64,000 bases of DNA from Asaia siamensis (GTDB lineage Bacteria; Pseudomonadota; Alphaproteobacteria; Acetobacterales; Acetobacteraceae). Each line of letters starts with the position of its first letter. Position 1 is the first letter of the stretch. Below are positions 24,589 to 58,688 of the stretch, one piece after another. A model generated the notes under the pieces. The model saw only the letters and a program-made list of their open reading frames with translations. It had not been told where the DNA came from and did no database searches. Where the stretch lies: contig NZ_BMCH01000001.1 of NCBI RefSeq assembly GCF_014635085.1, positions 62,001-126,000 of the forward strand, in the 5' to 3' direction. A program made the translations under genes and the position numbers.

Positions 24589-25436
24589 CAGGCGCTCATC
24601 TCGACAGCTTCCGGTTTGATCAGACGATGCGCCCCGCAGAAAATGGCGAGGCGATCGGGGCGGGCATTGCCAATAAGGGTCATGTCAGCCTTGCGCGCGA
24701 CCTGAATGGCGCGATCCGTGGGCGAGGAAATCGCGACCAGCGTGGAAATACCGAGCGTCAGCGCCTTTTCGACCATGTCATAGGAGCAACGGCTCGTCAC
24801 AAGGCAGAAGCCGCGACCAGGATCGCGTGGTGACTGGCTGAGGATTCCGATGAGCTTGTCTAGGGCATTATGGCGCCCGACATCCTCACGCACATAATGG
24901 ATCACCCCGTCAGGCGCTGCCCAGGCTGCGGCGTGGACCATATGAACCTTCTGGTTCAGCACCTGCAACTCAGGCAGGGCGGCGAGCGCCTTTCGAATGG
25001 CGGGCACCAGAATGCTATGGGCGGAAAGGCTCGCTCCGGGGGTTGCGATCTCGTTGAGATCGGTCACGCCACACAGGCCGCAACTGCTGCTGCCCGTCAG
25101 AAGTCGTTGCCCTCTGCGGATCAGTCGGCTGAAATCGACGCCAGGAATGCGGATATGTGCCGAGAGCTGGTCTTCGTGCCGTTCGATATGACAGGAGATC
25201 AGATCCGCCGGTGTGGCGATGATCTTTTCGGTCAGAACAAAACCAAGCACGAAATCATGAAGATCGAGCGGTGTGACCATCATCACCGCATAGACATGGA
25301 ATTCGTTGAAAATCAGCGTCAGCGGCGTTTCTTCCGCGATGCCGAGCTCGATGCGTTCCTGAACGCCGTCAGACCCGATCGCGACGGCATGGCGCAGCAG
25401 ATGCGCGGCGGCAAGGCTGTCAGGTCGTATCGTCAT
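24588..25436 (-). CDS. fdhD: Formate dehydrogenase accessory sulfurtransferase
   Basis: A 282-residue FdhD protein, which transfers sulfur from IscS to the bis-MGD cofactor before insertion into formate-dehydrogenase-type enzymes. The essential CxxC loop is present as 'LLTGSSSCGLCGV' (Cys119 and Cys122), with 'EETPLTLIFNEFHVYAVMMVTPLDLHDFVLGFVLTEKII' and 'YVREDVGRHNALDKLIG'. It overlaps the oxidoreductase gene by four bases (ATGA) and the NarM-like gene by one base, so the three are an operon. Confidence 0.95.
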   Translation of the reverse strand: MTIRPDSLAAAHLLRHAVAIGSDGVQERIELGIAEETPLTLIFNEFHVYAVMMVTPLDLHDFVLGFVLTEKIIATPADLISCHIERHEDQLSAHIRIPGVDFSRLIRRGQRLLTGSSSCGLCGVTDLNEIATPGASLSAHSILVPAIRKALAALPELQVLNQKVHMVHAAAWAAPDGVIHYVREDVGRHNALDKLIGILSQSPRDPGRGFCLVTSRCSYDMVEKALTLGISTLVAISSPTDRAIQVARKADMTLIGNARPDRLAIFCGAHRLIKPEAVEMSA

Positions 25437-27712
25437 GGCGTCCTCGCCGACGGGATCACGCGCACAGGAATCGATTTGGCAGCCGGTGTGCCGCTGATTT
25501 CATCATAGTGATTGAGTGGCAGAAGGGGGTTGAGTTCGGGATAATAACCGGCGATTGCCCCACGTGGCATCGGGTAGGCGATAGCCACCAGATCATCCAC
25601 GCGCCGGGAAATACCGTCCGTCGAAAGCGTTTCGAGGCTTACCACCATCTCCTGCTCGAGACCGCGCTCTGCCATGTCTTCATCATTCATGAATACGACC
25701 ATGCGGGTGTTGTAGATGCCGCGATAGCGATCATTCATGCTGTAGATCGTGGTGTTGAACTGGTCATGCGAACGTATGGTCGACAGGCGCAGCATGGCGT
25801 CATCCTCGATCGCATCATCAACGGCCAACCCCGGAAAGAGCAGGAAGCGGGCCTTGCCACTCGGGGTTTTCCAGACCCGACGACGGGGCGGTATATCGAG
25901 GTGAAAGCCCTGCTTGTTGCGGATGCGTGCATTGAAATCGGCGTAGATCTCCGGATAGACGGCAGCAATCCGGTCTCGGATCAGACTGTAATCATCCGCG
26001 AAAAGGGCCCAGGGGATGGGGCTTTCCGGCAGGGTCGCCTGTGCCATGCCACAGACGATAGCCACCTCCGAAAGCAGGTCAGGGCTCGCCGGTTCCAGCA
26101 CGCCGCGCGATGCCGTCACAGTCGACATGGCATCTTCGATGGTGATGAATTGCTCGCCCGTTGCCTGACGATCGATTTCCGAGCGGGCGATCACAGGCAG
26201 GATGAGCGCATCGCGCCCATGCACGATATGGCCACGATTGAGTTTGGTCGCGATCCCCACGGTCAGGTTGAGGCGACGCATCGCCTCATAGGCGCGCGGG
26301 GTGTCGGGAATGGCATGAATGAAATTACCGCCCATTCCGATAAAGACTTTCGCCGTGCCTGCCAGCATGGCCTCTACCGACTCAACCGCGTGGTGGCCAT
26401 GCGCCCGTGGGGGCTCAAAACCGAAGACGTCACGCAGACGGTCGAGATAGGCCTGGGTCGGTTTTTCGTCGATCCCTACCGTACGGTCGCCCTGCACATT
26501 CGAATGGCCGCGAATAGGGGCGATCCCGGCGCCTTTCTTGCCGAAATTCCCGCGCAGCATCAGGAAGGCAGCAATCTGCTGGATCATGCGCGCGCCCTGC
26601 TGATGCTGGGTAATGCCCATGCCAAAGCAGATGATCGTCGCGTTGGAGCGCGCATAGATTGCTGCAGCGCGCCTGATCTGGGTTTTTTCTATGCCTGAAA
26701 CCCGTTCGATTTCAGCCCAGTCCAGCTGCATGATTTCTTCGCGCCAGGGGGCAAAGCCTTCTGTATGCGTCTCGATGAAAGCATGATCGAGAACGGCTTT
26801 ACCCGCTGCGTCGCTCTCGAAAAGCGCTTTTGTCATGCCCTTGAAGAAGGCGAGATCGCCCCCGATGCGGATATGCACGAATTCCGTCGCGATGGCGGTC
26901 GAGCCGCCAGTCGCCATGGGCACAGGATCCTGCGGTTCGGTAAAGCGGATGAGCGCGCGTTCCGGCATCGGGTTGACCACGACGATCGGCACATTGCGTT
27001 TGCGGGCATGGGCAAGCAGACCCATCATGCGCGGCGAGTTCGTGCCCGTATTCTGACCGACAATGAAGATGGCCTCGGTATGCTCGAAATCATCCATCAC
27101 CACGGTGCCCTTGCCGATGCCTATGGCACCGGGTAGCCCGCGGCTGGTGGGCTCGTGGCACATGTTCGAGCAATCGGGAAAGTTGTTGGTGCCGAAGCTG
27201 CGCACGAAAACGGAGTAGAGAAAAGCCGCCTCATTCGATGTGCGGCCCGACGTATAGAACTCTGCCTCATCGGGGGAATTGAGCTGACGCAGATGGCAGC
27301 CGATCAGGTCGAAAGCCTCCTGCCAGCTGCAGGGAACGTAATGATCCGTCGTCGGATCGTAACGCATGGGCTCGGTGAGGCGGCCCTGCTCCTCCAGCCA
27401 GTAATCGCTTTGGTCAGCGAGCGCCGATACGCTGTGTTCGGCGAAAAACGCCCGTGTGACACGCCTCTTGGTCGCCTCGACCGCAAGTGCCTTCACACCG
27501 TTTTCGCAGAACTCGATCTTCTTGTGATGTGTCGGATCGGGGAAGGCGCAGCTGGGGCATTTGAAGCCCCCCGGCTGGTTCATGGAGAGCAAAGCGCGCG
27601 AACCCTTGCCGACAACGCTCTGTTCCAGAAGGGCTTTTGCTGTTGCCCTGACAGCACCCCACCCACCTGCCGGATGATGATACGGCTTGTAGATGGTCTT
27701 GCGATCGGGCAT
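25433..27712 (-). CDS. FdhF/YdeP-family molybdopterin oxidoreductase
   Basis: A 759-residue bis-MGD enzyme of the YdeP branch of the DMSO-reductase superfamily. An N-terminal Cys cluster reads 'GGFKCPSCAFPDPTHHKKIEFCENGVKALAVEAT'. The molybdopterin domains follow: 'EAFDLIGCHLRQLNSPDEAEFYTSGRTSNEAAFLYSVFVRSFGTNNFPDCSNMCHEPTS', 'GNFGKKGAGIAPIRGHSNVQGDRTVGI', and the C-terminal 'LSTIRSHDQFNTTIYSMNDRYRGIYNTRMVVFMNDEDMAERGL'. There is no in-frame TGA, so no selenocysteine. YdeP of Escherichia coli is linked to acid resistance; formate oxidation is often annotated but unproven. fdhD and the NarM-like gene follow in the same operon. Confidence 0.93.
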   Translation of the reverse strand: MPDRKTIYKPYHHPAGGWGAVRATAKALLEQSVVGKGSRALLSMNQPGGFKCPSCAFPDPTHHKKIEFCENGVKALAVEATKRRVTRAFFAEHSVSALADQSDYWLEEQGRLTEPMRYDPTTDHYVPCSWQEAFDLIGCHLRQLNSPDEAEFYTSGRTSNEAAFLYSVFVRSFGTNNFPDCSNMCHEPTSRGLPGAIGIGKGTVVMDDFEHTEAIFIVGQNTGTNSPRMMGLLAHARKRNVPIVVVNPMPERALIRFTEPQDPVPMATGGSTAIATEFVHIRIGGDLAFFKGMTKALFESDAAGKAVLDHAFIETHTEGFAPWREEIMQLDWAEIERVSGIEKTQIRRAAAIYARSNATIICFGMGITQHQQGARMIQQIAAFLMLRGNFGKKGAGIAPIRGHSNVQGDRTVGIDEKPTQAYLDRLRDVFGFEPPRAHGHHAVESVEAMLAGTAKVFIGMGGNFIHAIPDTPRAYEAMRRLNLTVGIATKLNRGHIVHGRDALILPVIARSEIDRQATGEQFITIEDAMSTVTASRGVLEPASPDLLSEVAIVCGMAQATLPESPIPWALFADDYSLIRDRIAAVYPEIYADFNARIRNKQGFHLDIPPRRRVWKTPSGKARFLLFPGLAVDDAIEDDAMLRLSTIRSHDQFNTTIYSMNDRYRGIYNTRMVVFMNDEDMAERGLEQEMVVSLETLSTDGISRRVDDLVAIAYPMPRGAIAGYYPELNPLLPLNHYDEISGTPAAKSIPVRVIPSARTP

Positions 27713-27807: not shown

Positions 27808-30168
27808 TCAGAAGCTGCTCACCACCGAGAAGAATGTGCCGCGCCTCTGCCCATACTGTGCCTGCGTCACTCCTACGCCGCTCCCGTCGCGAATCTGGTA
27901 GCGATGGTCGAAAAGATTGACGACATCAGCGCGTAGCTTGAGGCTGTGCCCCATCGGGACGTGGGTGAAGGTATGAGCGTAGCCGATATTGAAAACAGCA
28001 TAGGAGGGCTGCTTCTCCAGATTGGCGAAGCCGCTTCGCAGCCCGTAGCCATAGAGAAAGTCGAGATAGGCCATGTCATGCTTGTTGCTGTAGGACACGC
28101 CCGCCGATGAGGTGAATTCGCCCTGGTGATCGAGCTGGATGCCGTGACGCCTGATATAGTCCAGCTCGGCAACCTCGAACTGGTATTGAGCCGAGTTGAT
28201 GTCCTTCGCCCAGGTCTTGACGAAGGAGAAATTGCCATAGATCGACCAGCCACCATGGCGCCATGAATTGCCGATTTCGGCGCCATAAACGCGGCCACGT
28301 CTATAGCTGAAGGGCGCCAGAATGACGGCACGGCCGAACTGACCCAAATCACCCTGATCGCGCGCCCATTTGCCATAGGCGTCAAGCGTGATCTGATAAT
28401 CGCGCGTCACATGGTGCAGGATGCCAACATCGACATAATGGGATTTTTCCACCCTCGTTGGCGTGTTCAGCATGGTCTGGGGGGCGTTTGTCGTGCCGGC
28501 AAACTTGGCGAGGGTCGCATCTGAAATATATTGCGGCGAAGGCGGCGCGAAATAGCGCGAATAGCCAAAATGGATTGTTGTTGCGTTCGTCGCCTTCCAG
28601 ACCATGTTGGCCCGTGGGCTGAGCTGCCCCTCACTATGGAAGGAGGAGGCAAAACGGTCATAACGCAAGCCGTAATTGAAGGTCAGGCGAGGCGTGATAT
28701 GAAACTCGTCCTGAACATAGGCCCCGCCCTCGACGGCCCAGTTGCCACTATTGTCGACGATCCTTCTCGGGGTGGTCGAGGTCTGCTCGCCAGCGTCATC
28801 GACCGGGAAAGCCAGCGTGTTGGTATCGAGACGTTCGGCCGTATATTGCCCCAGCAGACCGAAACGCAGAACATGATGGGGCGCAATGTCGTAAGAGGTA
28901 TCGACCTGCAGCCCGCCCGTGGTGAAGTCGTTTACCTCATGCTGCGAGATACCTGAAAAAGCGAGATCGCGGTTCGGGTCATTGCGGTAATCGATGCGGC
29001 CATAGCGAAAATAGGGAGAGATCTGCAGGTTCATCCTGTCGGTGCTGCGCTGATAGGACAACACGGCATAATAGTTCTGTTCGGTCTGTCCGTTATCCAG
29101 CAGACGCGACTGGATGCTCTGATCATCGGGCGCGATGGTGGAGGACTGATAGAGCACCGGCAGCCCGGTCGTGTTCGGAAGCTCGAAATCCGAATAGGAG
29201 GCACTGGTCAGGAGGCTGATACGGCTTTCGTCATCGAGCTGATAAGCCACATAGCCGAAGCCTTTCTCCTGCTGCGTGAAGTCATGGGTCGCACGGAAGG
29301 AATTCGTCGGGTTCTCGATGCCGATATCGTTGCGGTTATAGGAAGCCGTGACGAAATAATCCCAGCGGTCTTTCGAGCCACCAAGCTGAAGGGACGGAAT
29401 GAAGGTGTTGTAGCTGCCTCCGTAAAGCGAGACCTGATTGTTTTTCAGGCTGTCACCTGTCTTGGTTTTGACATCCACAACCCCTGATGTGCGAAAACCG
29501 AACTGGGCGGGCAGTGTCCCTGTCAGCAGATCGACTGACTGGATGATGCGGCTATCCAGTTCCTGACCAAAGCCATTGAGCCCCTCGGGCAGCAGCACAC
29601 CATTGACGCGATAGGTAAGCCCGCCATGCTCGCCACGCACATGGATTTCGCCATAGGAATCCATCACCACCCCGGGCAGACGAAGCAGGATCTGGCTGAA
29701 GGCTGCGTTTTCGCCGCCCGGCGTCACCTGGATCTGTCTCTGGTCAATCCCGTATGAGACGGCCCCCAGACCCGGGGCGATACGTCCGCGTGCCTGATCA
29801 AGATGCGCTGTCACGGTGATGTCTTCGCGACCGGGCGGTGTTTGTGCGACGGTTTTCTCGCCGGCCGCAGATAGACGGGGTGCCGTGCTTTTCTTTGGTG
29901 ATCCCGAGGGCGTGCTGACTGCTGTCTCTACGGGAACGGATGAATGCGGCGTAGCTGTTGCAGGATGCGGTATTCCTCGCCTGGGTCCGGTCTTGACCCG
30001 CTGCGTGTCCTGCAATGCGGCTGATGTCAGCACGCTGCCATCCTGCGTCTTCCCCTCGGCTGCCAGGGCTTGTGTTGCGGCAAGGCATAGAAGGCATGGC
30101 CCTGTCAGAACTGAGCGCTTCAGAACCGGCTCCAGAAAAGCCGGAGCACGCTTGGGGATGGTGCGCAA
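27808..30168 (-). CDS. TonB-dependent receptor next to mntH, candidate manganese receptor
   Basis: About 786 residues. The plug includes 'AAFSQILLRLPGVVMDSYGEIHVRGEHGGLTYRVNGVLLPEGLNGFGQELDSRIIQSVDLLTGTLPAQFGFRTSGVVDVKTKTG', followed by a full barrel ending '...RRGTFFSVVSSF'. A possible signal peptide begins at a TTG (30168): LRTIPKRAPAFLEPVLKRSV, then LTGPCLLCLAATQALA. Starts at 30243 (ATG) and 30258 (GTG) would put 25-30 residues before it and would enclose the MntR-like box, so TTG is preferred despite lacking a clear ribosome site. It lies directly downstream of mntH on the same strand. An outer-membrane manganese-uptake role is inferred from this operator and neighbour. Confidence 0.85.
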   Translation of the reverse strand: MRTIPKRAPAFLEPVLKRSVLTGPCLLCLAATQALAAEGKTQDGSVLTSAALQDTQRVKTGPRRGIPHPATATPHSSVPVETAVSTPSGSPKKSTAPRLSAAGEKTVAQTPPGREDITVTAHLDQARGRIAPGLGAVSYGIDQRQIQVTPGGENAAFSQILLRLPGVVMDSYGEIHVRGEHGGLTYRVNGVLLPEGLNGFGQELDSRIIQSVDLLTGTLPAQFGFRTSGVVDVKTKTGDSLKNNQVSLYGGSYNTFIPSLQLGGSKDRWDYFVTASYNRNDIGIENPTNSFRATHDFTQQEKGFGYVAYQLDDESRISLLTSASYSDFELPNTTGLPVLYQSSTIAPDDQSIQSRLLDNGQTEQNYYAVLSYQRSTDRMNLQISPYFRYGRIDYRNDPNRDLAFSGISQHEVNDFTTGGLQVDTSYDIAPHHVLRFGLLGQYTAERLDTNTLAFPVDDAGEQTSTTPRRIVDNSGNWAVEGGAYVQDEFHITPRLTFNYGLRYDRFASSFHSEGQLSPRANMVWKATNATTIHFGYSRYFAPPSPQYISDATLAKFAGTTNAPQTMLNTPTRVEKSHYVDVGILHHVTRDYQITLDAYGKWARDQGDLGQFGRAVILAPFSYRRGRVYGAEIGNSWRHGGWSIYGNFSFVKTWAKDINSAQYQFEVAELDYIRRHGIQLDHQGEFTSSAGVSYSNKHDMAYLDFLYGYGLRSGFANLEKQPSYAVFNIGYAHTFTHVPMGHSLKLRADVVNLFDHRYQIRDGSGVGVTQAQYGQRRGTFFSVVSSF

Positions 30169-30204
30169 ATAAGTATATGTTTCAAGGAATCCCTTGAGCT
30201 TTCT

Positions 30205-30224
30205 TAGATAGCAAATGCTATATT
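30205..30224. promoter_or_regulatory. MntR-like operator upstream of the TonB receptor
   Basis: TAGATAGCAAATGCTATATT contains ATAGCAAATGCTAT, a perfect 14-bp dyad. It is nearly the core of the enterobacterial MntR site (AACATAGC-N4-GCTATGTT). It lies between mntH and the receptor. Confidence 0.65.
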
Positions 30225-30292
30225 GTGAAGCGGAAGGGGGCATGGATCGGTCTTTCACAGCATTTCGGTGGAAAAGGAGAGAGGGCCTCGCC

Positions 30293-31708
30293 TCAGGCGG
30301 CGAGGGTGTCGTAGAGAAGTTTGAAATTGAGGAGCAGAATGATCGCCGCCACGGCCCAGGAGAGGGTTTTCATGCCGGGCGAGATCGTGAAACGCCCCAT
30401 CTTACGTCTGTCAGAGACGAACATCACCAGCGGGATGACCGCGAAGGGCAGCTGCAGCGAGAGCACGACCTGGCTGAAGATCAGCAGTTTGCCCACACCA
30501 TGGTCTCCATAGAGCGCTGTCACGACCACGACCGGCAGAATGGCCAGACCTCGTGTGACAAGACGGCGCGCCCAGTGCGGGATGGTCAGGTGCAGAAACC
30601 CTTCCATCACGATCTGCCCGGCCAGCGTGCCGGTGACGGTGGAATTGGTGCCTGCGGCAAGAAGGGCGACAGCAAAAAGGGTCGAGGCCAGGCCCATGCC
30701 AAGCACGGGCGAGAGCAGGCGATACGCATCCTCGATCTCGGCCACATCCTGATGGCCTGTCCCATGAAAGGCTGCTGCAGACACGATCAGAATGGCAGCA
30801 TTGATAAACAGCGCCAGCATGAGCGCGACCGTACTGTCGAGAGTCGCCCAGCGTAGCGCATCCTTGCGCCCCTCATCGTCACGCCTGTAGTCGCGCGTCT
30901 GTACGATAGACGAGTGCAGATAAAGGTTATGGGGCATGACCGTTGCGCCGATGATGCCAATGGCAATGTAGAGCATGGCAGGGTTGGTCACCACGCTTGC
31001 GCGTGGCAGGAACCCGGCCATCACAGCGGCTACCGGCGGGGCGGCTGCGACAATCTGCACGCCAAAACATACGGCGATGATGCTCAGAAGCGCGATGATG
31101 AATGCCTCGAGATAGCGGAAGCCGCGATTCATCAGAAACAGGACGATCAGCGCGTCGAAGGCCGAGATAAGCGCGCCAAAAAGCAGTGGGATATGAAACA
31201 GCAATTGCAGCGCAACAGCCGTGCCGATGACTTCAGCCAGATCGCACGCGATGATCGCCAGTTCACAGGTGAACCAGAGCACGAAGGAGATGGCGGGTGG
31301 AAAATGGTCGCGACAGGCCTGTGCCAGATCGCGCCCGGTCACGATACCCAGACGGGCTGCCAGCGCCTGAAGCAGAATAGCCATCAGATTCGAGATCATG
31401 ATGACCGAAAGCAGGGTGTAGCCGAATTGTGCTCCGCCCTGCAGGTCGGTCGCCCAGTTGCCGGGGTCCATATATCCCACGGCCACCATATAGCCCGGCC
31501 CCACGAATGACAGGAAACGCCTGAGCCAGCCTGCGCCTTCGGGCGCCACACGCACGGAAGAGAAGACCTCGGGCAGACTATGCCCGTCGGCCCCGAGCGC
31601 ACGTGTAAACCGCCACGGCGTGCGTTTCACATCGGGCTGGTGGGCGCCGATGGGATCGGTTCCGGTCTGGCTGGAGCAGGTTCCCTGTGCGGGCGGAGGG
31701 CAGGACAT
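30293..31708 (-). CDS. mntH: Proton-coupled manganese transporter, Nramp family
   Basis: A 471-residue inner-membrane Nramp transporter that imports Mn2+ (and to a lesser extent Fe2+) with protons. The metal-binding helix-1 motif '[28 protein letters not shown]' and the helix-6 '[19 protein letters not shown]' are both present, with about eleven membrane segments. A 60-residue hydrophilic N-terminus precedes the first helix. An MntR-like box lies 30-50 bases upstream of the ATG. mntR is encoded 1.1 kb away and a TonB receptor directly downstream. Confidence 0.95.
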
Positions 31709-31736
31709 GGGGCGTTACTCAAACCTAAGGCTTATC

Positions 31737-31756
31737 AATATGCAATATGCTATATT
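31737..31756. promoter_or_regulatory. MntR-like operator upstream of mntH
   Basis: AATATGCAATATGCTATATT shares the half-site TGCTATATT with the box at 30205-30224. The other half is imperfect (AATATGCA against AATATAGCA). It sits at promoter distance from mntH. Confidence 0.55.
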
Positions 31757-31893
31757 TAGCAGAAGCATACATTCTGGACTGATAACGTCCTGTTGATCAG
31801 GTGGTTGGTTTTGGTGCGCTGTCAATGGCAGGGACGGTGCCGCCATCGGCTCGGCAGGTCTGGCCTTTCCACTGCGAAGACGATAGCGTCAGA

Positions 31894-31908
31894 TGCGAAC
31901 GATTCGCA
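31894..31908. promoter_or_regulatory. Fur-like box upstream of the methyltransferase gene
   Basis: TGCGAACGATTCGCA is a near-perfect 7-1-7 inverted repeat of the same type as the box at 4434-4448. It lies 40 bases before the methyltransferase ATG on the plus strand. Confidence 0.5.
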
Positions 31909-31948
31909 TAATGGCTTCATGCGGCGCCGCAGCAAGGAGTGTTCTGCC

Positions 31949-32809
31949 ATGTTATGCAACGCCCCTCTTCCTGAAATGTCACTGGCAAGGCTGCGCGGAG
32001 TGACGGAAACCATGCTGATCACGCTGGCGGCGCGCGTGCTTGCCCCAGAGCAGGCGACCGATCTCGGGTTTCGCGACCGTACGGCAGAGGCGATCGCGGC
32101 GCGGCTGGGTTTTGATCCGGCGCGTTTCGCTGCTGACCGTAAATCGATGCGTGGGACCATTCTGCGGGCCAGATGGTTCGACCGGGTCATCGAGGCCTGG
32201 CTCATGCGTTACCCGGCCACACTCTGCCTGAGCTTTGGTTCAGGGCTCGATATGCGCCAGAACCGGCTGAACAACATCGATGCGGCGCTGTGGTATGACA
32301 TTGAGCTGCCCGAGATCCTGACCCTGCCTGAGCATGTTCGTCCGCCGGGAATGATCGGCACCGGGTTGGTAAGCGATGAACTGGGGGCGGGGTCATGGCT
32401 TGATGCCCTGCCGCATAGCCAGGGTCAGCCCATACTGTTTTTTGCCGAGGGTGTGCTGATGTATTTGCCGCCCGAAATCGTATGGCGCCTGTTTGCCCGG
32501 CTCAGGGATTTTGCGGCTGCAAGAAAAGCCCCGCTTGGTATCGTGTTCGACTATGTCTCGCCCTTCGTTTCACGGCATGCCCATAGCAATCCCAGTGTGC
32601 GTCAGACTGGGGCCCGTTTCGACTGGAGCCTGCGCCAGCTGCATGAGGTATCATCTCGTGTTCCCGGTCTGGTTCTGCGTGAGGACTACGATCTGGCACG
32701 TGATATCAGTTGGGGCGCAAGCTGCGTCGCCCGTCTTCATGCGCTGCTCACGCACGGGTCGCTGCTCTGTGGGGCGGCCTTGTTCGAGGCTGGCGCTGAT
32801 ACCGTCTGA
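31949..32809 (+). CDS. Class I SAM-dependent methyltransferase, LCM/TcmP-like
   Basis: A 286-residue methyltransferase of the leucine-carboxyl-methyltransferase-like group that includes polyketide O-methyltransferases such as TcmP. Supporting blocks are 'VIEAWLMRYPATLCLSFGSGLDMRQNRLNNIDAALWYDIELPEI' (SAM-binding glycines and the acidic strand end) and 'PILFFAEGVLMYLPPEIVWRLFARL'. The ATG at 31949 follows AAGGAG; the frame upstream to 31793 has no such site and would contain the Fur-like box. It is divergent from mntH and ends back-to-back with mntR. The substrate is unknown; iron or manganese limitation may induce it. Confidence 0.85.
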   Translation: MLCNAPLPEMSLARLRGVTETMLITLAARVLAPEQATDLGFRDRTAEAIAARLGFDPARFAADRKSMRGTILRARWFDRVIEAWLMRYPATLCLSFGSGLDMRQNRLNNIDAALWYDIELPEILTLPEHVRPPGMIGTGLVSDELGAGSWLDALPHSQGQPILFFAEGVLMYLPPEIVWRLFARLRDFAAARKAPLGIVFDYVSPFVSRHAHSNPSVRQTGARFDWSLRQLHEVSSRVPGLVLREDYDLARDISWGASCVARLHALLTHGSLLCGAALFEAGADTV

Positions 32810-33322
32810 TCAGTTCGTGTCGGATGGACCAATCAGGGAGCCGAGCCCATTGGCAAGGGCGCGGTCGAAGGCAGCGAGTGTCTCGTCACTCACATAATGT
32901 TCGATCCCTTCCGCATCGACGCGCAGTGTCTCTTCACTGATGCCAAGGGCGCGCAGAAAGCTCTCGACGATGCGATGGCGGTTTTTCGCCTCATCGGCCA
33001 CGCTCTGGCCTTTGCCGGTCAGAAAGACACCGCGATAGGGTCGGCGATGCACATAGCCCTCATTGGAGAGGCGGGTCAGCATCTTGGCGACGGTGGGTTG
33101 CGAGACGCCAAGCCGGGTCGCGATATCGACCTGCCTCGCTTCACGCCCTTCGGCCAGGAGATCGGCAATGAGCTCGACATAATCCTCGATCAGCGCATTG
33201 CGTCGTGCCGCGCGATTGAGGCGAAACCCTTCAGATTGCGTATCGACGTCAGGAAGCGTGACCTCTGGCATGCCAGTCGGGTCGTCGTGCTGCTCGCCGG
33301 GTTTCATGATGCCACCAGTCAT
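32810..33322 (-). CDS. mntR: Manganese-responsive DtxR-family repressor
   Basis: A DtxR/MntR regulator that senses Mn2+ and represses uptake genes. 'ARRNALIEDYVELIADLLAEGREARQVDIATRLGVSQPTVAKMLTRLSNEGYVHRRPYRGVFLTGKG' is the winged helix, and 'HRIVESFLRALGISEETLRVDAEGIEHYVSDETLAAFDRAL' is the metal-binding dimerisation region with the conserved E-x-x-H. The SH3 domain of DtxR is absent, as in MntR. The ATG at 33322 follows GAGGG; an in-frame ATG at 33400 adds 26 residues without a ribosome site. Its likely targets are the two boxes at mntH and the adjacent receptor. Confidence 0.92.
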   Translation of the reverse strand: MTGGIMKPGEQHDDPTGMPEVTLPDVDTQSEGFRLNRAARRNALIEDYVELIADLLAEGREARQVDIATRLGVSQPTVAKMLTRLSNEGYVHRRPYRGVFLTGKGQSVADEAKNRHRIVESFLRALGISEETLRVDAEGIEHYVSDETLAAFDRALANGLGSLIGPSDTN

Positions 33323-33447
33323 GAAGCCCTCATCGCAGATTAGCCCGCCGATCTCAACTGCGCTCATGAAGCGGGGGCGTTGTGCGGTCTGCGTCGCCAT
33401 GTCATGTCTGTGCCACCCGATCAGGCACCCAGCAGGAAGGACAGGAT

Positions 33448-57977: not shown

Positions 57978-58688
57978 CTATGTAGTCGAAATCACAAGGC
58001 TCTGATCTATTTGCGCTGAGGATAGAAAATTTGCAAATGCTGTTTTGTTGATCGCATTCAGCTTATGATCTCCGATTTTGCATACCATAAAAAGTCGGAT
58101 AATTTTTGACAAAGGTATAGCATCGTTCGATTTGAAACTATGCCAATTTTGATCAGTTGTCTTTGAAGAATCAAAAAAATAGAATCCATCAGCATGATAA
58201 ACCACAGCATAGGCGCTACTTGTAAAACGCTGCATTTTTTGACATTGTTCTTTAATTTCTGCAGTTCCAAGACTCCTAAATCGGCCATTTCCTGTGTGCC
58301 TTTTTGCTTGAAAGAGGAAGCCCTTGTGGGCCTCGATTCCTGGAAGTCCAGATTCAAGCACAATCATAGCGTCCGCTCCGCTGATGGACTCTTCAGAATT
58401 CATCCCTTTTGCGACAGTGGATCTACCCATAAAACGAGGTGCTTTAATTATCTCAGTTTGCAGAGTAACTTTTTTTTGTGTGTCATTCGATCCTCTCACA
58501 CCAAAGGGCTGTGAGATAGAGTTGCAAGAGAGCACAAATCCGTTAATAGCAGTTTCCAGCATCTGAATAAGACGTTCGGTGATCGCTTCTTCTCCGACTA
58601 TAGTTCCTTCTGAAATCCTTTTCGCAAAGTGTCTTTCCACATTCCTGATTTTTTCCTCAAGTTTGTCTAAGCTATAATCTGTAAACAT
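57978..58688 (-). CDS. Protein with a probable PD-(D/E)XK nuclease-like core in AT-rich DNA
   Basis: A 236-residue protein of no recognised family. The pattern fits a restriction-endonuclease-like fold of the Mrr-type variant: an early helix with acidic residues ('GEEAITERLIQMLETAING'), then 'SGADAMIVLE' with Asp106, a short loop, and 'KGFLFQAKR' with Gln127-x-Lys129. A helix 'EIKEQCQKMQRFTSSAYAVVYHADGFYFF' follows. Its base composition is much lower in GC than the kdp genes or the peroxidase gene on either side, which suggests recent transfer. It is convergent with kdpE. Possible roles are defence or DNA repair; the function is unknown. Confidence 0.65.
   Translation of the reverse strand: MFTDYSLDKLEEKIRNVERHFAKRISEGTIVGEEAITERLIQMLETAINGFVLSCNSISQPFGVRGSNDTQKKVTLQTEIIKAPRFMGRSTVAKGMNSEESISGADAMIVLESGLPGIEAHKGFLFQAKRHTGNGRFRSLGTAEIKEQCQKMQRFTSSAYAVVYHADGFYFFDSSKTTDQNWHSFKSNDAIPLSKIIRLFMVCKIGDHKLNAINKTAFANFLSSAQIDQSLVISTT

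Follow-up and report, generated by a model that had tools for sequence, protein, structure and literature searches.

A TonB-dependent receptor beside mntH in Asaia siamensis is a candidate manganese receptor with a predicted MntR operator probably inside its coding sequence

TonB-dependent receptors of the Gram-negative outer membrane mostly serve iron. A receptor of this kind encoded beside a manganese importer raises the question of which metal sensor controls it and which metal it carries. Such a locus is found in a stretch of 64,000 nucleotides of Asaia siamensis (contig NZ_BMCH01000001.1; in the following the window), where the receptor gene lies directly 3' of mntH, both on the minus strand, and mntR is located 1.1 kb from mntH. 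An earlier note, made from the sequence alone, had described this arrangement and suggested a manganese receptor under MntR control. The matches to PF00593, NF001923 and, for mntR, NF008273 confirm the gene order and distance it gave. Comparison with related loci strongly supports a predicted control of the receptor by MntR, and the receptor qualifies well as a candidate manganese receptor, a kind of which little is known.

The perfect dyad that had been reported before the receptor is indeed present (ATAGCAAATGCTAT at 30208-30221) and consists of two 6-bp arms and an AA spacer. The exact sequence ATAGCANNTGCTAT occurs a single time in the 3.3-Mb genome of the organism, namely at this receptor, with about 0.075 occurrences expected from the composition of the window. 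Across 200 genomes of the family, 79 of which have matches to the receptor at a threshold of E 1e-30, the exact dyad was found in 10 genomes in one copy each. Eight of these copies are located at this receptor gene; the remaining two were assigned by eye to a nuoA-like stretch (G040) and to the vicinity of an amino-acid-type binding protein (G185). A site with one mismatch was additionally recorded at G000:C3:482650; by estimate, chance alone should produce a few sites of this sort.

The receptor matches of the family fall into a class of close orthologues, with 54-85% identity, and a class of sisters, for which 37-43% is usual. From the family genomes and named Asaia and Swaminathania records, 19 distinct orthologue loci including the window were assembled, with duplicates counted once (L044/L041, L045/L036, L047/L038, and L057/L040). 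The best segments of the 18 loci besides the window are 54-92% identical to the receptor. A sample of 289 genomes of the class, searched with a threshold of E 1e-100, yielded no match exceeding 42% identity outside the own genome. A look at relatives, as the earlier note had proposed, showed that the gene order as well as the dyad are kept. An mntH gene, whole or as a remnant, adjoins the receptor in 16 of the 19 loci (not in G009, G136, and G061), and in 14 loci mntR accompanies both genes. The dyad is present in 15 loci, exactly in 12 and with one mismatch in 3. MntR goes along with all 15 of them, in 11 genomes above the family cut-off and in four named Asaia loci by tblastn; by the same search the MntR frames are broken in the A. 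astilbis draft. The four loci lacking the dyad belong to genomes (G046, G126, G136, and G061) in which neither an MntR above the family cut-off nor an mntH-type box was found. In the MntR-less G061, a dyad with two mismatches lies 1.3 kb ahead of the receptor gene and was taken as chance. In G126 (L055), mntH and the receptor gene are each split into two or three frames, by decay or by assembly errors.

A weight matrix built from the 15 receptor dyads alone was applied to sequences of E. coli K-12. In 8.0 kb around mntH its top site is located just upstream of that gene (25.8), and in 7.0 kb around mntR the first two ranks fall between mntS and mntR (22.2 and 20.8). This ranking agrees with the claimed closeness of the dyad to the enterobacterial MntR core. 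Within the window, the dyad as a training site scores 32.4, followed by the box before mntH (17.6) and by a site at 58026 (16.5) inside an open reading frame (ORF) of unknown kind. The MntR proteins of the window and of E. coli share 58% identity over 138 aa, with LGVSQPTVAKML being identical. Because the dyads are conserved, are missing at the four loci of genomes without an MntR above the cut-off, and yield a matrix that ranks the E. coli sites on top, the reading of the receptor dyad and the mntH box as predicted MntR sites is supported.

The box before mntH had been described as a related imperfect version of the dyad, and AATATGCAATATGCTATATT was confirmed at 31737-31756. With at most one mismatch, this mntH-type box was found at 31 places in 26 of the 200 family genomes, and according to a comparison of coordinates 26 of the 31 places directly precede mntH, a remnant of it or this receptor gene. 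Another regulator, e.g., Fur or Mur, might read this box and leave only the receptor dyad to MntR. The asymmetry of the box and a spacing that differs from that of the dyad would fit such a division, and in other bacteria mntH can respond to several metal sensors. Nevertheless, both boxes are jointly absent from the four MntR-less genomes, and in G048, G025, and G135 a single intergenic region between mntR and mntH accommodates an mntH-type box together with an imperfect dyad of the receptor type, so that a separate reader of the mntH box is regarded as quite improbable. One exact mntH-type box in G030 (L124, G030:C21:29999) precedes a small ORF followed, as judged by eye, by an Fe/Mn superoxide dismutase-like gene, which is a possible further target of MntR.

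The distance between the mntH stop codon and the ATG of the receptor amounts to 41-81 nt in 10 of 13 loci and to 124-226 nt in the other three. Three loci show what becomes of the boxes when the local mntH is lost. In G025 (L052) it is a frameshifted remnant without about 316 codons, and in G037 (L051) only about the last 58 codons were found, with the receptor and both boxes kept in either case. The receptor of G009 (L053) occurs without mntH, its ATG being preceded by an mntH-type box at a distance of about 75-80 nt and followed by the dyad. All three genomes harbor mntH elsewhere. Since the boxes at the receptor are kept where the local mntH has decayed or is absent, they are more than passengers of mntH.

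The position of the dyad relative to the start codon decides whether it is an ordinary operator upstream of the gene or part of the gene itself. The earlier note had argued for a TTG start at 30168, which was rejected in favor of ATG 30243 because of the conserved in-frame ATG of the relatives. In 14 of the 15 dyad loci, this ATG precedes the dyad at a fixed distance, exactly 22 nt in eight loci of Asaia and exactly 16 nt in Swaminathania and another five genomes. In most dyad loci it is preceded by a purine-rich tract, and the frame is open from the ATG through the dyad into the signal peptide. On account of this exact spacing and the frame running through the dyad, the start is assigned with good confidence to ATG 30243, upstream of the dyad. 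The operator would then probably lie inside the receptor coding sequence, with its DNA being translated.

Translation from downstream of the dyad, at TTG 30168 or a similar codon, would instead make the dyad an untranslated or promoter operator of the ordinary type. Several loci do offer a TTG, GTG or ATG after the dyad, and the dyad of G079 lies out of the ATG frame, in another frame, and itself contains an ATG. Moreover, two of three compared pairs lack a clear codon-position signature in the leader past the dyad: two Asaia pairs differ at 10, 8, and 9 and at 12, 7, and 10 sites of the three codon positions, without an excess at the third, and the pair G048/G037 leans to such an excess (6, 9, and 15). 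As this signature is unclear, the case for the ATG start is built on where this codon lies, on the open frame and on the scarcity of other starts. For the last point, two species are informative. No ATG, GTG or TTG occurs between the dyad and the signal peptide of A. lannensis, and the sole such codon of A. prunellae comes after the hydrophobic stretch (signal peptides delimited by eye). Together with the fixed distance of the ATG in 14 of 15 loci, this renders a downstream start unlikely.

The codons themselves indicate what is being conserved. The dyad reads in the receptor frame as Y-S-x-C-Y in 14 of 15 loci, with the first Y replaced by I or H in one locus each. Conservation drops at the edges of the dyad, 12-14 of the 14 in-frame loci agree at each third codon position within the arms, and the central (spacer) codon encodes N, I or K. 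With codon usage pooled over these genes, TAT, AGY, TGC, and TAT would be expected together as arm codons with a probability of 0.085 per gene. As the synonymous sites of the arms are near-frozen and the central codon is variable, it is the DNA on which selection acts. Conservation as a peptide motif or an RNA hairpin, or a chance dyad, would agree with the frame kept in 14 of 15 loci, and a C-to-T change in an arm (G022 and G009) would retain a G-U pair in RNA. Still, the middle codon changes its amino acid, G079 keeps the dyad in another frame, and sites of like form occur at E. coli mntH and mntS/mntR. The A and T beside the two-base spacer are invariant, though they would belong to the loop of a hairpin. 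These three explanations were rejected by the rarity of the dyad in the genomes, the codon-position pattern and the ranking of the E. coli sites by the matrix, and are thus regarded as highly improbable. On the minus strand, 8-9 nt past the dyad (30199-30200 in the window), G is found in 14 of 14 in-frame loci and the preceding A in 13 of 14.

The origin of this control can be approached by the sister receptors. From the sister matches, a part comprising 24 family loci was inspected (16 taken by rank, six picked, and two picked as adjoining mntR), along with five loci from outside the family; the upstream stretches of L156 and L160 are shorter than 600 nt. A Zur-type site scoring at least 11/13 occurs upstream of 19 of the 24 family sisters and of 20 of all 29 sister loci, three further ones of which score 10/13. 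No MntR box was found in the 29 sister loci, with an MntR matrix score of at most 15.2. Conversely, none of the 19 box-clade loci has a Zur-type site, the score being at most 9/13 and 8/13 in the window. Among 300 random segments of the window none scored at least 11 and nine scored 10. In a second background, drawn from the site-bearing loci and therefore with inflated tails, 7/600 segments reached a Zur score of at least 11 and 22/600 an MntR score of at least 16. The sister motif agrees with GTTA-5N-TAAC, the Zur motif of proteobacteria, as well as with the znuK site given in PMC4176598. The Zur motif also scores 12/13 between E. coli znuA and znuC. In the own genome, such a site is flanked by a Zur-like gene, whose best family match (NF008646) reaches 119 bits against a cut-off of 167, and by a gene for a zinc/manganese-type binding protein with an ATPase. 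The second receptor of this family in the own genome (C3:286805) carries a Zur-type site as well.

In the tree, calculated without L039, L042, and L055 (broken receptor frames) and without L019, 16 box-clade sequences are set apart with full support. The simplest reading is that the box clade comprises metal receptors whose sensor would have changed from Zur to MntR, the direction and number of changes being inferred. A further case may be given by two loci of one genus, L103 (G024:C23) and L104 (G112:C4). Their receptors belong to a different clade, are divergent from mntR, and feature a dyad-like GTAGCC-type variant (TTTGTAGCCAAAGCTACAC in G024) and no Zur-type site. It is tentatively proposed, at somewhat less than an even chance, that Zur was exchanged for MntR at least twice in the Acetobacteraceae and that one of these lines gained an intragenic operator as the second switch of a manganese-importing mntH-receptor operon. 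The count of two changes is weakened because L026 and L033, the nearest tree rows to the mntR-adjacent clade, lack a Zur-type site as well as the dyad variant. Likewise, the Zur association is weaker outside the family, where only one of five sisters scores at least 11. Among the 29 positions that separate the box clade from the sister loci there is no clear metal site, and no residue set marks manganese.

This leads to the cargo. The receptor might be controlled by MntR within a general low-metal response and import something other than manganese, e.g., zinc or a ferric chelate. Besides the iron preference of TonB receptors in general, the weak family and structure-sequence matches of the receptor point that way, as they lead to heme, siderophore, colicin I, and pyrroloquinoline quinone (PQQ) receptors, and so do the Zur-type sites of many sister receptors. 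In addition, a fusion of the MntR-controlled receptor locus of Stenotrophomonas was active only at low manganese combined with low iron (PMC13217887). The box clade, however, has no Zur-type site in any of its 19 loci, and both MntR-type boxes are retained at the receptor despite a decayed or absent mntH. Another cargo is accordingly considered rather unlikely, and manganese is the substrate suggested by regulation and neighborhood.

Taken as a whole, it is considered moderately probable that mntH and the receptor gene constitute a short unit for manganese uptake under repression by MntR, with the dyad as a second switch and with a receptor clade that originated from Zur-type receptors. At sufficient manganese, the metal-loaded MntR would occupy two sites, namely the asymmetric box of the mntH promoter and the near-perfect dyad in codons 8-12 of the receptor gene. 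MntR on the dyad may block initiation nearby or act as a roadblock to transcripts coming from the mntH promoter, and this second site would shut off the receptor most tightly. Under scarcity of manganese, both genes would be expressed. The TonB-driven receptor would then carry Mn2+ or a manganese complex over the outer membrane, from where MntH would transport it onward into the cytoplasm. The clade probably arose from receptors with Zur sites by a change of the metal sensor. Binding, repression and roadblock are predictions from sequence comparison, and some points weigh against them. The matrix was trained on the 15 dyads and is therefore tested by the mntH-type sites and by the E. coli sites, which are MntR operators, only. 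The joint absence of dyad and MntR corresponds to about two events in the tree instead of four, with G126 standing outside the tree. A sensor other than MntR could read the mntH box, which is imperfect. Finally, one consensus promoter scan of 30100-32000 detected no promoter.

The notion that outer-membrane manganese receptors are little known is fair, although they are not unknown, as two are described in print. In Burkholderia thailandensis, MnoT is described as a manganese-specific TonB-dependent outer-membrane transporter induced by low manganese, with TseM, a secreted manganese-binding protein of a type VI system, as its partner (Si et al. 2017, as presented in PMC8602904 and PMC13217887). 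As a TonB-dependent manganese transporter, MnoT resembles the candidate role of the window receptor. In S. maltophilia, orf2357-2358 encode an MntR-controlled receptor of the CQNC type and a thioredoxin-fold protein (PMC13217887, 2026). This system likewise combines a TonB receptor beside mntR and mntH with an MntR box ahead of it, and is a candidate for manganese uptake over the outer membrane. As a comparison of descriptions rather than of sequences, the two receptors can be set apart in three respects. The S. maltophilia receptor has the CQNC plug motif, which the window receptor lacks, its only cysteines being residues 11, 50, and 53 in leader and signal peptide, so that the mature protein is free of them. 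Moreover, no thioredoxin-fold partner gene was recognized beside the window receptor, whose neighbors are mntH before and a molybdopterin oxidoreductase gene after it. Downstream neighbors vary, and among ORFs of at least 150 aa judged by eye in eight other loci no thioredoxin-fold gene was recognized either. Finally, the MntR box of S. maltophilia is located 75 bp upstream, whereas the dyad of the window is probably intragenic.

ZnuK and ZnuL of Caulobacter (PMC4176598) are zinc receptors controlled by Zur and hence metal receptors under a metal sensor; many of the sisters considered here share their GTTA-5N-TAAC-type site. The box clade differs by its MntR-type sites and the lack of a Zur-type site, a distinction by site and not by orthology. 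A site of the same form is located at mntH of E. coli K-12 (NC_000913.3), where the controlled gene is mntH and not a TonB receptor. Similar to the receptor dyad, this site is contained, in frame, in ypeD, a short annotated ORF overlapping mntH (L153:3688-3777, K-H-S-K-G-Y-V); a literature search for ypeD together with mntH returned no paper. Among the open-licence papers listed in literature searches, no title or abstract opening mentioned an MntR-controlled TonB receptor beyond Stenotrophomonas, and passages of a Xanthomonas paper holding both terms (PMC6776340) make no connection between its MntR-like gene and a receptor. MntR-controlled TonB receptors as such are thus already known. New are the lineage, the split between Zur and MntR, and the predicted operator inside the gene.

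The features of the locus are compiled in Table 1. The barrel domain of the receptor matches PF00593 with 93 bits (4.8e-26; gathering cut-off 27). The plug domain PF07715 is not matched by the window receptor, and the relative L103 reaches 22.2 bits, marginally below the cut-off of 23.9. The methyltransferase gene between mntR and mntH is probably a neighbor outside the manganese system. It holds the same place in A. krungthepensis, A. prunellae, and A. platycodi, and was not detected by tblastn in the loci of A. astilbis, W19, A. lannensis, G149, and Swaminathania. The molybdopterin oxidoreductase gene follows the receptor in the Asaia and Swaminathania loci and not in the remaining orthologue loci. 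A possible short hairpin without a T run, CCTCGCC-GCCTGA-GGCGAGG, was seen by eye over the mntH stop codon (30286-30305, minus strand).

Table 1. Genes and predicted elements of the mntR-mntH-receptor locus (positions in the window).
Feature	Position	Strand	Remark
mntR, DtxR-family manganese repressor	32810..33400	-	NF008273, 222 bits (cut-off 153)
LCM-type methyltransferase	31793..32809	+	PF04072; between mntR and mntH, opposite strand
mntH-type box AATATAGCATATTGCATATT (minus strand), asymmetric	31737..31756	.	28 nt before mntH start
mntH, NRAMP Mn(2+) importer	30293..31708	-	NF001923, 640 bits (cut-off 430)
Gap between mntH stop and receptor ATG, 49 nt	30244..30292	-	
TonB-dependent receptor	27808..30243	-	811 aa from conserved ATG; PF00593
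Probable start codon ATG	30241..30243	-	22 nt before dyad; gaaag upstream
Codons 8-12, TAT AGC ATT TGC TAT (Y-S-I-C-Y)	30208..30222	-	arms near-invariant, central codon free
MntR-type operator (predicted), ATAGCA-AA-TGCTAT	30208..30221	.	probably within coding sequence
Molybdopterin oxidoreductase, neighbor gene after receptor	25433..27712	-	PF00384

The passage of manganese over the outer membrane of Gram-negative bacteria is poorly known, and the box clade provides a compact and testable case in acetic acid bacteria. The sister clade with its Zur-type sites offers a natural comparison, in which residues linked to the sensor can be tested for the choice of metal. Moreover, an operator at the start of the coding sequence, conserved between genera, would represent an unusual mode of gene repression.

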